NCBI GenBank assembly: GCA_903871875.1
Contig: CAIQIR010000058.1
Span: 1-64,000, forward strand
Source of the DNA: an uncultured Schlesneria sp.
GTDB taxonomy: Bacteria > Planctomycetota > Planctomycetia > Planctomycetales > Planctomycetaceae
Direction of reading: 5' to 3'
DNA length: 64,000 bases
Both the position numbers and the translations under genes were made by a program. Positions 40,138 through 55,362 of the stretch are shown here, piece by piece. Within the stretch, counting starts at the first letter, position 1; every line of letters begins with the position of its first letter. The notes under the pieces were generated by a model. It was not told the origin of the DNA, searched no databases, and worked only from the letters and a program-made list of their open reading frames with translations.

Positions 40138-41202
40138 ATGTTCGAAGAATTGCTCAAGACGAGCAAATCGGCGCTCCAGGGTGTCGATACGTATCTGTCT
40201 TTCGCTGAAAACAGGCTCGGCCAGGCTGCAGTAACTCGCCTTCACCCGTCTCGCCAGGCAGCGCTCTTTGGTTCGATTACGCTGATCTACGGTCCCTCGG
40301 GCGTGGGCAAAACTCACCTTGCCCTGTCGACGCTGAACGAATCGACTCGTCGACATCCCCGTTTAAAATTTGCTTATGCGACGGTCAAAAGCCTGTGCGA
40401 CATGATGCAAATGGCTGAAGAACGCCAGTCCCTGGCTGAGTTGCTCGAACAATTCCAAACACTGGATGTCCTGGTCTGCGAAGACCTGCACGAGTTGGAA
40501 CAGAACCCAATGTCGCAACCCTGGTTCGTGATGCTGATCGAATCACTGGGAGAAAGTTTGACACAGATTCTGATGACATCGCGAAAACCCGCTGGAGAAA
40601 TTCGACCGCTGGATCAGCGCCTGGTTAGTCGCTGCCACGGTGGCCTTTGTGTTTCGATGCCCCTGCCCAGTCTCGAAAGCCGCGTCCAATTGTTCCAGCA
40701 TTGGTTTCGAGAGCTCCGATTGCCGATCCTAAAACCATTTGTCGCCTCAGCTCGATTTCTCGCCGAACGACTTCCTTTGACACCACGCGAACTCCGTAAG
40801 GCGGTCCAGGATCTCGCTGCACGGCAATCCCGGCGACCAACTCCGATTGATGTTGCCTACCTGGAACGCTGGCTGAATAAGGAAGATCGAACCCCGCGTC
40901 TGTCGTTTGAAGCGATTGTCTTTCAAGTCGCACAAGAGTTTGGTGTCGAACCGACGGAAATCCGCTCTCGTTCCCGTCAACAGGGTTTGGCTGTTCCGCG
41001 GCAATGTGCCATGTGGCTGGCCCGCGAACTGACCGGCCGACCACTGGAACAGATCGGTGAATATTTCGATCGATCACATACCACGGTGTCGCACAGTCTG
41101 TCGCGCTTAAAGGAATTGATGCCGACAATTCCTTCGCTTCGCCAACAGGTTCATAAACTGCAACAACGCTTGAAAGAACTGCCTCGCGAAGACTGTGCAT
41201 AA
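40138..41202 (+). CDS. dnaA: Chromosomal replication initiator DnaA, short form lacking domain I
   Basis: 354 aa, against about 440-470 for typical DnaA. AAA+ domain III begins almost at once: Walker A GPSGVGKT at 52-59, Walker B DVLVCEDLHE (Glu115-Asp116 in place of the usual Asp-Asp), sensor I ILMTSRKP, and the arginine-finger region RLVSRCHGG. Domain IV is intact with the DNA-binding signature RSHTTVSHS (residues 312-320; usual form RDHTTVLHA). The in-frame TAA at 40123-40125 rules out a longer N-terminus, so domains I and II (helicase and DiaA contact, linker) are missing. DnaA opens oriC; the boxes start at this gene's stop codon. Confidence 0.9.
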   Translation: MFEELLKTSKSALQGVDTYLSFAENRLGQAAVTRLHPSRQAALFGSITLIYGPSGVGKTHLALSTLNESTRRHPRLKFAYATVKSLCDMMQMAEERQSLAELLEQFQTLDVLVCEDLHELEQNPMSQPWFVMLIESLGESLTQILMTSRKPAGEIRPLDQRLVSRCHGGLCVSMPLPSLESRVQLFQHWFRELRLPILKPFVASARFLAERLPLTPRELRKAVQDLAARQSRRPTPIDVAYLERWLNKEDRTPRLSFEAIVFQVAQEFGVEPTEIRSRSRQQGLAVPRQCAMWLARELTGRPLEQIGEYFDRSHTTVSHSLSRLKELMPTIPSLRQQVHKLQQRLKELPREDCA

Positions 41203-41495
41203 CCTGTGGATGACCTGTGGATGACTGTCGATGAATCGGCCTGGTTATGAACACCGACCGCCAACAATTCCGGCCCTTCGTTGATAACTCGACCAAACAA
41301 CACCCGTTTCCCACACGGTTGTCGACGTGCTGTCGGCGAGGAATCCACAGTCACTAAATGTGGATTCCAAATCTTAAAGTTTCTGATCAGTTCAAGTTCC
41401 GTCATCACCTGAACTGACAATCCACATTTCCAAGGCTTCTCTAATAAGACTGCTACGATAAATTATCTCAGTAAAGAAGAAAGAAGAGCGGACAG
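41194..41495. other. Candidate chromosomal origin of replication (oriC)
   Basis: Starting in the dnaA stop codon there is TGTGCATAA (41194-41202), the exact complement of the DnaA box TTATNCACA. Then come TGTGGATGA at 41205 and again at 41216 (one mismatch each), and a weaker TGTCGATGA at 41226: spacing 11, 11 and 10 bp, one helical turn. Further sites are TTATGAACA (41245), an inverted pair GGAATCCACA (41340-41349) / TGTGGATTCC (41359-41368), and CAATCCACA (41418). An AT-richer stretch with the palindrome GATAAATTATC (41457-41467) near 41436-41480 could be the unwinding element. It lies between the convergent dnaA and gltX genes. Confidence 0.75.
41340..41368. repeat. Inverted pair of DnaA-box-like sites
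   Basis: GGAATCCACA and TGTGGATTCC are perfect 10-bp inverted arms separated by GTCACTAAA. Each arm contains the ATCCACA core of a DnaA box, so paired binding by initiator molecules is plausible. Confidence 0.6.
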
Positions 41496-41509
41496 AACCC
41501 TCAACGAAC

Positions 41510-43084
41510 TTAGACTCGATTCAATGCTCGCTCGACTCTTCGCAACGAGCTGTCTCGCCCCAAAATTGCCAAGGCATCGAACAGTCCGATGCCGACTGAT
41601 TTTCCGGTCACGGCGACTCGCAAAGCATGAACGATCTGTCCGATCTTAATGCCCTGGCTTTCAACGAAGTCGTGTACCAGCTTGTCGAGCGTTGGAGCAT
41701 CGTAAGGTTCAATCACGGCCAATTGTTCTCGAATGGACTTCAGCAAACCGACCGCTTCCGTCGCATCGCGAAGACGTTGTTGAAAAGGCTTCTCGTCAAA
41801 CGGCATCGCGTCGTCAGCGATGAAGAATTCCTTGTAATCGAGAATGTCACTGAAAATCCGCAGTCGATCAGCAACAGCCCCAATCACACGGCCCACAGTT
41901 GAACGGACGGCATGATCAACGTCTGCAGGAATCAATTTGGCCTTGGTCAAATAAGGCAGACAGCCATCGATCTTTTCTTCGATGGAAAGCTGATTCATCC
42001 AATGCTGCTGAAAGGATTGCAGTTTTTCGGGATCGAAACCGGCTGGCGCTTTCACGATTCGTTCGAGTGTGAAGTTTTGAACGACTTCCGCCAGTGACAT
42101 AAATTCAGTTGTTCCATCGAGTGACCAGCCAAGTCGTGACAGCGCGTTCAGGATGCCGGCAGGCAGGTAACCCAGTCGTTCGTAATACTCCACCATAACC
42201 GGGTTCAGCGTTTTGGAATCACCGACGCCAATTTGTGGGAAGACCTCGTCTGCTCGTTCGAACATTTTCTTTAGTTGCGGGCTGGTTCGCAGTTTTTCGA
42301 CATCTCGCTTGCTGAGCTTTTTGGTCGAACCTGGAGCCGTGATGAACGGGATATGTGCGAAAACCGGCATCGGATTTTCGAGTGCCAAGTGAATCAAGGC
42401 CTGGACGGGCGTGTTGGCTAGATGTTCTTCTGCTCGAATGATATGGGTGATTTGCATCTGGCCGTCGTCGACGACAGTAGCAAAGTTGTAAAGAAACGAG
42501 CCATTGCTGCGCATGATGACCGGGTCGGGCATCAGTGAGCAATCCCATTCCACGTGCCCGCGAACGGCATCGTCGATAGCGATCTTCTGGTCGCGTGGGA
42601 TCAAAAACCGAACGACAAACGGTCGCTCATTGGCTTCCAGTTGTTGTCGTTCGGCATCGGTTAACTCAAGTGACCGGCGAACGTTGACGTAGGTCCGTTT
42701 GGCAGCTTCGGCCTGTTTGCGATCATCAGCGATCACTTCTGGTGGATCGAAATCTTTGAATGCTTTCCCCGACGCCAGCAACTTGTCGACAGCCGCCTGG
42801 TAAAGAGGGGTTCGTTTGGATTGGTAATATGGTTCAAAGGGACCACCGACTTTAGGGCCTTCGTCCCAAGTCAGACCCAGCCATTCGAACGCCCGGAAAA
42901 TCGGGTCAAGTGCCGCTTCAACATTGCGTTCCTGATCGGTATCGTCGATCCTCAGAATGAATGTGCCACCCATGTGGCGAGCCCACAACCAAGCAAATAA
43001 AGCGGTTCGCATCCCACCAATATGCATGTAGCCAGTGGGACTGGGGGCAAATCGAGTTCGAACAGGTACGGTCATCAGCGACAT
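41510..43084 (-). CDS. gltX: Glutamyl-tRNA synthetase
   Basis: 524 aa. Class I aminoacyl-tRNA synthetase. HIGH motif as FAPSPTGYMHIGGMRTALF near the N-terminus, DDTDQERN, the tRNA/Glu recognition segment, and the KMSKS loop as STKKLSKRD. The C-terminal anticodon-binding part is complete. The start at 43084 (MSLMTVPVRT) is chosen over an upstream extension of 14 codons; an ATG at 43075 is also possible. No GatCAB gene is adjacent, so discrimination versus tRNA-Gln charging cannot be judged. Confidence 0.95.
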   Translation of the reverse strand: MSLMTVPVRTRFAPSPTGYMHIGGMRTALFAWLWARHMGGTFILRIDDTDQERNVEAALDPIFRAFEWLGLTWDEGPKVGGPFEPYYQSKRTPLYQAAVDKLLASGKAFKDFDPPEVIADDRKQAEAAKRTYVNVRRSLELTDAERQQLEANERPFVVRFLIPRDQKIAIDDAVRGHVEWDCSLMPDPVIMRSNGSFLYNFATVVDDGQMQITHIIRAEEHLANTPVQALIHLALENPMPVFAHIPFITAPGSTKKLSKRDVEKLRTSPQLKKMFERADEVFPQIGVGDSKTLNPVMVEYYERLGYLPAGILNALSRLGWSLDGTTEFMSLAEVVQNFTLERIVKAPAGFDPEKLQSFQQHWMNQLSIEEKIDGCLPYLTKAKLIPADVDHAVRSTVGRVIGAVADRLRIFSDILDYKEFFIADDAMPFDEKPFQQRLRDATEAVGLLKSIREQLAVIEPYDAPTLDKLVHDFVESQGIKIGQIVHALRVAVTGKSVGIGLFDALAILGRDSSLRRVERALNRV

Positions 43085-43365
43085 TCTCTCAAGTGACGAA
43101 ACGAGCACGAAAGTTCCTTGGGGCATTCTCGCGATTTACGCCCCCCCGTACACTGTGCGGACTTTACAAATTTGGCATTCCAGGTTGAGTCCGATCTCAA
43201 TGGGCAACATCGGTGCTTCTACTTGTGGCTGTCTGACCCTACCCTGTTTGTGGTTGTCGACCAATCGTCTCGGAACGCTCAACGATTTCAAAGGATTGGA
43301 ATCCCGAATGGCCTATTCTTGGATTCGTGATTGAAAGTCCAGAAGTGATTGATCAGGATACCGAA

Positions 43366-44747: not shown

Positions 44748-45581
44748 TCAAAAACCAAACCAACTTTTTCGGCAGCAATTCTTGCGACGAAGATTGATCA
44801 ATTCTGTTACTTGACCGTGGTCAAGGCGGTCAAGTAATGCCTTCATTCCGAGATTCAGTTTGCATTCCATTTCTTCTGGAAACAGAGGCACAACAGCATA
44901 AAAGAGAATGGACTGCTCTTCGTCGATCTTTAGTGTTCTGAAGTCGTCTGGACAGGTCAAAGGTGGCGTTAACACCGCACCACAGAACTTGGTATTCGAC
45001 GCGTAGGCCAGCGGAGGTTCGCTATTCGGCACGGAATGACTGGCGCCCAGCCACGTGCGAAATTCATGCGGCAACCGAGCCAAGACTTTCAACAAGCGAA
45101 TTGGCCAATAGTTTCGCTCATCTTGGAAATCGTCCATGCTCAGCGGCCAATCGGCAGGCAGGCAAAGCATCAATTCCGCATAGCGTAATGACTCGGCTCC
45201 GTTAGGGACGGTCATTGGCCGTTCTGACATACCGCTGGTGACCAGTGTGTAATACGGGCGATGTGGCTGAGGCGGGATTCGGTGAACGTCGATATGAACA
45301 TATTCCGAGACCAGTTCGTGAAACACATAGTCGATCGGTCCCAGATGAGTTTCAAGATGATCCGAGATCATCTGTGTATGAGCGTCATTGGCCGGCGGAA
45401 GCGGAGTTGACGGCTGTCGTCGATCCCGAAGTGCCGGCATGCCGACCAACTGTTCGCGTGGCAGGGGGTCTGGAACGACGAGGCTTTGACCACAACATCG
45501 ACAGGTGGCCTGACAGCCGGCTTTGTCGAGGTCCACTCGATAACGGGTGTCACATTTTTCGCAGCGGAAAACGATCGCCAT
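44748..45581 (-). CDS. Zinc-ribbon protein with Suppressor-of-fused (SUFU) domain
   Basis: 277 aa, cytosolic. Residues 1-35 form a zinc ribbon with Cys7-x2-Cys10 and Cys27-x2-Cys30 (CEKC, CRCC). Residues about 70-265 match the bacterial SUFU-like fold: HLETHLGPIDYVFHEL at its start, VTSGMSERPMTVP, LRYAELMLCLPADWP and WPIRLLKVLARLPHEF are the recurrent conserved pieces. In animals SUFU regulates Hedgehog signalling; bacterial copies are often toxin-immunity proteins or polymorphic-toxin partners. No toxin gene is adjacent, so its role is unknown. The stop overlaps an 8-bp AT-rich hairpin. Confidence 0.88.
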   Translation of the reverse strand: MAIVFRCEKCDTRYRVDLDKAGCQATCRCCGQSLVVPDPLPREQLVGMPALRDRRQPSTPLPPANDAHTQMISDHLETHLGPIDYVFHELVSEYVHIDVHRIPPQPHRPYYTLVTSGMSERPMTVPNGAESLRYAELMLCLPADWPLSMDDFQDERNYWPIRLLKVLARLPHEFRTWLGASHSVPNSEPPLAYASNTKFCGAVLTPPLTCPDDFRTLKIDEEQSILFYAVVPLFPEEMECKLNLGMKALLDRLDHGQVTELINLRRKNCCRKSWFGF

Positions 45582-51194: not shown

Positions 51195-53786
<2,592 letters not shown>

Positions 53787-53856
53787 TTAAGGTCTCGGCC
53801 GCGAAGTGCACCCCTGTCATTTTTCGTGCGGGTTCACGTCGCGTTCAGGTGTCAGT

Positions 53857-54171
53857 TCATGTTCCGCTGAGTTTGAATTTCAGGGTCTTAATTTTCAGGT
53901 GGGGATATTGTTGTTTCAGGTTCTGCAGCAGTTCAGGTCCTTGGAACGAAGCCAGTTCGCTGAGCAATGGCGCGTTCTCGACGGAGACTGTCAGTGTGCC
54001 CCGACTGACAAGTAGCGGACGCGATTGGGCGGCGATGTCAGGGCCGGCAATTTTTTTCCAGGCCGCTTCCAGTTCACTGTCGCTGCGGACCCGCGCAAAA
54101 CCGCGAATCGCGATCAGTTCGCTCAAGGCAACGGAAAGTGGCAGGGGGTCACGAGGAACCATGCAAACCAT
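53857..54171 (-). CDS. dciA: DciA-like helicase operator/loader (DUF721)
   Basis: 104 aa. DUF721 domain: LSELIAIRGFARVRSDSELEAAWKKIAGPDIAAQSRP is the family core (helix with WKKIAG), followed by LTVSVENAPLLSELASF and a basic C-terminus KIKTLKFKL. DciA is the ancestral loader of the replicative helicase in bacteria lacking DnaC/DnaI. Its position between dnaN and gyrB, where recF or DUF721 genes sit in many genomes, supports this. ATG at 54162 is an alternative start. Confidence 0.88.
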   Translation of the reverse strand: MVCMVPRDPLPLSVALSELIAIRGFARVRSDSELEAAWKKIAGPDIAAQSRPLLVSRGTLTVSVENAPLLSELASFQGPELLQNLKQQYPHLKIKTLKFKLSGT

Positions 54172-54252
54172 CTAGCAATACGCAGTATTCAGTGGTCAAT
54201 TTTTCCTGTTTCACACCAGCAACCGCTGGTGAACAGATTCGTCCGTGATCCT

Positions 54253-55362
54253 TCAATCTCGGGCGAGTGGCATTACGACATAGGTGTAATTGTCGTCGGT
54301 GACCAAGGTAGCTCGGTCATCATGGCTGATCAGTTTGAGATGGAACTGAGAGCCGGCATCGAGCACCTTCAGAAAATCGGCAACATAGCGAGGGTCAAAC
54401 GTAATCGTCATTTCAGGGCCGTCATACGAAATTGGCATTTCGATTGTCGATTGACCGATGTCGGTGGCTTTGCTGTTCAGCTTCAAAGTGCCTTTGCCAA
54501 ATGCGAAATCGACACCGCGGCTTTCTTCGTTCGTCACGATCATCGCCTGACGAACGGCCGTGTAAAACGGAGCCACAACCATGTCGATCGTCGAAACACA
54601 GTTTTCGGGAACGACCTTGCGATAATCTGGGAACCGGCCCTGCACCAATTGACTGGCGATCGTAGTTCCCTGACAGCGAACAACGATGTCGTTCTGATGC
54701 AAGGCGATATGGGCCTCACCCGTTCCATCTCCCAAGCTTTTTTCGATCAGTCCCATCGCCTTCGACGGAATGACGGGCGAGGTGGCTGGAATCGATGGTT
54801 TGCCGACCATGCTGGAGGCTGACGTGACAACCGCCAGGCGTCGACTGTCGGTGGCTGCCAGCGTCAATTTTTCGGCACCCAGTTCCATCTGAATACCGCC
54901 CAATGCATAGCGAGTGCTTTCGCTATCGGTCGCGAACAGGGTTCGACGGATCATCGTCCGCAGTGCGCCAGCAGGAACCACGAAATAATCGGTGTCCTCA
55001 AATGTGGCGACGGGTGGGAAGTCGGCAGGGTCTTCGGCCGACAAGCGAAATTCACTGTAGCCGCAGCGAATCCAGGTCGCATCGCCAGTGACTTCCAGCT
55101 TGACGACATCGTCGTTCAATTCGCGGAGCACTGCCAACACGCGGGCGGTCGGCAGCAATGCCTCACCACGCGAGTCGGATTGAACATCGGGTACGTCGCA
55201 GCGCATGCCAATTTCGCTGTCGTTACCGATCAGCGTGGCCTTGCCACCACCCACTTGTAGTTTGACATTTTTGAGAATGTCTTTGGGAGTCCGCGCGGGA
55301 ACGACACCGGCCACGGTTTGAAATGCGGCCGTCAGGGAATTTCTCTGGCAGATCAATTGCAT
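54253..55362 (-). CDS. dnaN: DNA polymerase III beta sliding clamp
   Basis: 369 aa, the usual length for three clamp folds. N-terminal QLICQRNSLTAAFQTVAGVVPART, the central YALGGIQMELGAEKLTLAATDSRRLAV (clamp signature) and the C-terminal YVADFLKVLDAGSQFHLKL-DDRATLV-YTYVVMPLA end are all typical. It encircles DNA and tethers polymerases. It heads the dnaN-dciA-gyrB group; dnaA is 13 kb away on the other strand instead of directly upstream. Confidence 0.96.
   Translation of the reverse strand: MQLICQRNSLTAAFQTVAGVVPARTPKDILKNVKLQVGGGKATLIGNDSEIGMRCDVPDVQSDSRGEALLPTARVLAVLRELNDDVVKLEVTGDATWIRCGYSEFRLSAEDPADFPPVATFEDTDYFVVPAGALRTMIRRTLFATDSESTRYALGGIQMELGAEKLTLAATDSRRLAVVTSASSMVGKPSIPATSPVIPSKAMGLIEKSLGDGTGEAHIALHQNDIVVRCQGTTIASQLVQGRFPDYRKVVPENCVSTIDMVVAPFYTAVRQAMIVTNEESRGVDFAFGKGTLKLNSKATDIGQSTIEMPISYDGPEMTITFDPRYVADFLKVLDAGSQFHLKLISHDDRATLVTDDNYTYVVMPLARD

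Follow-up and report, generated by a model that had tools for sequence, protein, structure and literature searches.

Where on the chromosome does replication begin in a Schlesneria whose DnaA boxes start inside a dnaA stop codon? The locus lies in a stretch of 64,000 nucleotides (the window), which belongs to a genome of 7.61 Mb assembled as 178 contigs, and an earlier note had marked the boxes as a candidate oriC. Our analysis, for which 14 relatives of the same genus were in the search set, supports that proposal: judging from the sequence, segment 41194–41490 is very probably the chromosomal replication origin, and one of a standard kind. Arguing for this are the GC-skew minimum at the site, a core element that is kept in all 15 Schlesneria and is unique in the genome, the density of DnaA boxes, trio-like repeats at the corresponding site of other genera, and the adjacency of dnaN in relatives. 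The features are collected in Table 1.

Table 1. Features of the putative origin and its surroundings (window coordinates).
Feature	Position	Strand	Remarks
Short dnaA paralog, 354 aa, DnaA domains III and IV only	40138–41202	+	Pfam/NCBI profiles
DnaA box 1 (TTATGCACA; read on the + strand as TGTGCATAA)	41194–41202	-	Its TAA ends ORF 40138–41202
DnaA boxes 2 and 3 (TGTGGATGA twice)	41205–41213, 41216–41224	-	11-bp register
Weak DnaA box 4 (TGTCGATGA)	41226–41234	-	10 bp after box 3; two mismatches
Inverted box pair	41340–41349/41359–41368		Perfect 10-bp arms, 9-nt gap
Core DnaA box CAATCCACA	41418–41426	+	Two mismatches; box + CTCTA[AC]TA in 15/15 Schlesneria
Spacer, 14 nt	41427–41440	+	Between core box and trio repeat
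Degenerate DnaA-trio repeat CTA ATA AGA CTG CTA CGA	41441–41458	+	Complementary strand to the 3'-GAT-5' form
AT-rich stretch, candidate unwinding element	41437–41487		71% AT vs 45% in the window
gltX	41510–43126	-	Convergent with short dnaA
gyrB, dciA, dnaN replication operon	51195–55362	-	Inverted relative to dnaA/oriC, 10 kb off

The gene next to the boxes had been read as dnaA. This is right as far as domains III and IV are concerned, which are indicated by matches to Bac_DnaA (PF00308, 69 bits) and Bac_DnaA_C (PF08299, 77.7 bits), but DnaA_N (domain I) was not matched in the protein, and its score of 194.8 bits against TIGR00362 lies below the cut-off of 343.9. The protein has 15 residues ahead of the point where domain III starts in Bacillus subtilis DnaA, whose structure (8btg) it matches with an E-value of 1.3e-28. 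By its profile matches, the dnaA of the window is a paralog that lacks domains I–II. A full-length DnaA is encoded on contig C55; it reaches 354 bits against TIGR00362, above the same cut-off, with a DnaA_N match below the Pfam cut-off. A tree built from 48 sequences, of which 19 are short, 23 are long and 6 come from other bacteria, places the short and long DnaAs in separate clades with bootstrap values of 100 each.

At the 3' end of the short gene, the four boxes lie where the earlier note had placed them, at steps of 11, 11 and 10 bp, and boxes 1 to 3 are three copies of an 11-nt direct repeat. Box 1 had been called exact. It does overlap the TAA of dnaA, and it fits TTATNCACA, the DnaA box consensus in E. 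coli usage, but it has one mismatch to TTATCCACA, as have boxes 2 and 3 each, and box 4 has two. Exact ATCCACA/TGTGGAT 7-mers are clustered, with five in less than 300 bp vs 0.042 expected from the 242-kb contig (Poisson ∼1e-9 for a single 300-bp stretch, with no correction for how many stretches there are); in the rest of the contig, such a stretch holds two at most. Two boxes in an 11-bp register do not recur in the 242-kb contig, nor do they occur in 2,770,372 bases of control DNA (L033–L172).

Conservation of the boxes in relatives, suggested earlier as a check, holds for the core at 41418–41458, which is present in 15 of 15 Schlesneria (one with a box reading ATCCACG), and fails for the phased array. 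TGTGCATAA is found at the stop codon of the short dnaA in 10 of the 15, where it also codes for the last residues, DCA-stop; G015 has a box at this site too, TGTGGATAA, though with different codons. An exact box 2 occurs in only three of the 15, box 3 in the window only, and box 4 was not seen in an alignment of relatives comprising 14 Schlesneria and G015. Since the 11-bp array is not kept within the genus, we rejected phasing as the functional core. The same alignment has two conserved islands, the TGTGGA of the inverted pair, whose right-arm copy is present in all 15 aligned rows, and ACAATCCACA-spacer-CTCTAATAAGACT. The locus left out of it, L008 from genome G007, had its core located separately: in the 1.5 kb that follow its short dnaA, about 750 extra bp with inverted repeats stand between the gene and an intact core, and the stop-codon box is lost. 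This insertion is a natural test that separates the gene from the origin core. Single copies of the core pattern are present in the genome of the window and in G003, both at the short dnaA, and in G027, at another place; 8 further genomes searched had none.

Two further elements proposed in the earlier note, the perfect inverted box pair and the AT-richer stretch, are both present. The AT-richest 51 bp of the origin region begin at 41437, adjoining the core box, and the 51 bp at 41440–41490 are 67% AT, a value matched by 0.03% of sampled 51-mers of the window.

This arrangement resembles the basal unwinding system (BUS) of the B. subtilis oriC, which in the accessible text of PMC8287927 and PMC6669920 likewise combines a DnaA box, a short spacer, a trinucleotide repeat and upstream distal boxes. 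The BUS rules, as given in that text of PMC8287927, ask for a box with at most two mismatches, a spacer of 0–16 bp and at least three consecutive NAN triplets. CAATCCACA and its 14-nt spacer fall within the first two limits; in contrast to the B. subtilis form thus described, the trio of the window is interrupted (AGA, CGA), and 41418–41500 has no three consecutive NAN triplets. The degeneracy of the repeat, which has no run of three NTN triplets, speaks against an origin. A further difference from B. subtilis is that the DnaA linked to the site lacks domains I–II. Another comparable system is oriC2 of Clostridioides difficile, which according to the accessible text of PMC7561715 has its unwinding region 3' of dnaA and a trio, CTACTACTATTACTACTA, in the strand form that we see in other planctomycete genera; that paper treats it as one half of a bipartite origin, whereas the boxes of the window are, so far as seen, on one side of the gene only.

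In those other genera, the same place often carries plainer repeats, such as TAATCCACA followed by CTCTGATACTACTACTGCTAAAT in L197. Compared with shuffles, a trio-like repeat 3' of the short dnaA reached p ≤ 0.02 in 20 of 49 other loci, where about one was expected, and the remaining 29 lay above that value (two loci with <150 bp downstream were left out of the scoring). Among 15 further genomes, trio runs of at least four follow the short dnaA in G047, G056, G049 and G057 and runs of three in G040 and G038; an accepted run at this place is absent from G018, G021, G039, G043, G044, G045, G048 and G053, and G051 has a doubtful one. In the closed genomes G018 and G021, a core-like element is missing from the 800 bp after the short dnaA, a finding that counts against the origin.

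GC skew, suggested earlier as a check, agrees with the site in the contig of the window, in G003 and in G027, disagrees in G015 and is indecisive in G032. In the contig of the window, the cumulative minimum lies at 41,896; the skew climbs from ∼65 kb to the right end and is mixed over the left 42 kb, and against an origin it is not negative in the first 25 kb. In the closed genome G003, the only congener assembled as a single contig, near-contiguous sampling places the minimum at 4,347,689, 3.4 kb from the core (4,351,104–4,351,130; short dnaA 4,351,341–4,352,402), and of the 20-kb samples, 8 of 9 between 1.42 and 4.26 Mb have a negative skew and all 5 between 4.46 and 6.06 Mb a positive one, with the remaining circle mixed. 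The other three relatives are closed genomes too. The best coarse fit for G027 is the record start, which is the site of its short dnaA, with a local minimum 14 kb earlier. G032 is strongly positive from its record start, with a left flank that is not negative, and its best coarse fit, at 4.82–5.20 Mb, slightly exceeds that of the start. In G015, coarse sampling (L073–L092, L153–L172) yields a fit at 1.66–2.0 Mb, near dnaN (1.617 Mb) and not near the short dnaA (6.47 Mb), although a box and a core-like element are present at the latter.

As an independent marker of the origin, parS was of no use. Matches to it were found in 2 of 11 genomes, and control matches occurred in G003 as well; the parS-like sites are two in G003, which at 1.8 Mb from the short dnaA speak against the origin, and one in G039, 65 kb before the record start. 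In Rfam searches the window was empty at curated thresholds, and at relaxed ones the origin region had a single chance-level match.

The position of the site between convergent dnaA and gltX genes had been considered unusual, a view that the relatives do not bear out. In 22 of 59 genomes (G017, 023, 024, 027, 029, 032, 034, 035, 036, 038, 039, 040, 043, 044, 045, 047, 048, 049, 051, 053, 056 and 057, from families f1, f3, f4, f5 and f7; in G045 across the record start), dnaN follows the short dnaA within 1.2 kb on the same strand. An origin beside the short dnaA is therefore the usual layout, and only dnaN has moved here. Long dnaA is followed by dnaN in none of the 59, and by coordinates no match to the long gene lies within 50 kb of dnaN, many of the assemblies being fragmented. 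The remaining 14 Schlesneria carry dnaN on a separate contig or, in the case of G003, 0.48 Mb away. Inverting ∼41.5–55.4 kb of the window would place dnaN immediately behind the core, the order seen in relatives, and the layout suggests, as its simplest reading, a past inversion that had one of its ends between oriC and dnaN. The accessible text of PMC5109545 describes dciA within the planctomycete replication operon or beside scattered genes of that operon. A few kb from the origin, a gene at 44748–45581 (- strand) encodes a protein that matches the SUFU (suppressor of fused) domain with an E-value of 8.1e-48.

Clusters of DnaA boxes can also titrate or reactivate DnaA, datA and DARS being the respective types, and the site could be such a cluster or one through which the short dnaA regulates itself. 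The overlap of boxes with a dnaA stop codon would suit this explanation, and the distant core of G007 shows that gene and core are separable; but a box-spacer-trio series is a layout for unwinding, the skew minimum falls at the site both in the contig of the window and in G003, the same place is the dnaA–dnaN gap in 22 of 59 relatives, and boxes 3' of a gene are ill-suited to the control of its promoter. We consider it very unlikely. Slightly less likely still is an origin at the long dnaA or at dnaN, of which the present site would be a relic. Only the long DnaA scores above the NCBI DnaA cut-off, and the coarse skew minimum of G015 is closer to dnaN than to the short dnaA. In G003, however, the skew is negative at the long dnaA (3.21 Mb) as well as at 3.55 and 3.91 Mb, around dnaN (3.87 Mb), with no flip, and a relic would hardly be expected to retain its core in all 15 Schlesneria. 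That the inverted repeats at 41340–41368 and 41387–41417, lying between convergent genes, are a mere transcription terminator for dnaA and gltX is scarcely credible, as no terminator-like site was found in 41100–41560 and relatives keep the box bases, not whole stems.

For the replication origin, we propose the following course of events. DnaA would bind the boxes first, and an oligomer starting from the core box (41418–41426) would extend across the 14-nt spacer onto the trio (41441–41458), where it could open the AT-rich stretch. Helicase would be loaded next, perhaps with DciA, which is encoded 12 kb away. Distal delivery or regulation may be the role of the inverted pair and of the boxes where the short dnaA ends; in the species of the window, the phased boxes, ∼200 bp before the core, could serve as helically phased distal sites. 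A distal box of B. subtilis acts with helical phasing, possibly via a loop, according to the accessible text of PMC6669920.

The long-DnaA query matched with at least 190 bits in all 36 genomes searched. The long form is the only DnaA match in G037, G046 and G050 (98–99% complete) and also in the less complete G019 and G033, and perhaps in G041 (97%), where a further weak DnaA match is present. Because such genomes exist, the long form is possibly sufficient alone and the short form possibly a regulator. A known DnaA-related protein is Hda, which lacks the usual domain set and, like the short DnaA, is a DnaA-type AAA+ protein found beside full-length DnaA; the short DnaA differs from it in retaining the DNA-binding domain IV and in adjoining the origin, and its match to the Hda model is weak (43 bits against a cut-off of 194.8).

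The two forms differ at a position in domain IV equivalent to E. coli Q408, a contact residue; this Gln, of the PRQ motif of DnaA, is usually invariant. The residue is Gln in 24 of 24 short DnaAs, a count that excludes proteins picked by a PRQ-containing pattern. In the 26 readable long DnaAs (L001, L042, L170, L240–L263; the G046 protein, in the wrong frame, was left out), it is Met in 24, Ala in one and Ile in one. The difference suggests divided labour between the DnaAs, yet the long-only genomes show that a DnaA of the Met type may serve alone. The motif for binding single-stranded DNA provides a clean division of short and long forms only weakly. The position of B. subtilis I193 is Leu in 7 of 7 long forms of family f1 and Val or Ile in 2 of 9 short forms, several long forms outside f1 have Ser there, and the I190 position is not Ile in either set.

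The separate clades and the Gln vs Met/Ala/Ile residue lend support to a tentative, rather doubtful proposal, namely that many planctomycetes have a split initiator, in which the origin-linked short DnaA would read the boxes and nucleate assembly, and the long DnaA would supply domain I, with which helicase is loaded, and would form the filament on the trio. The genomes in which only the long form is seen speak against it.

Among titles and the beginnings of abstracts in the open-access literature, we found neither an experimentally mapped planctomycete origin nor paired DnaA forms in planctomycetes, and the two-DnaA setting of this oriC is unusual and apparently undescribed. In the accessible text of PMC5177795 and PMC10923784, the one origin-related mention is the rotation of records to dnaA. 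In records rotated to 'dnaA', position 1 is the origin or not depending on which paralog was taken. With an origin that is fixed and open to testing, and with a minimal DnaA alongside a full one, it would become possible to ask which DnaA domains are needed at origins, and a fragment carrying this oriC would aid the construction of replicating planctomycete plasmids.
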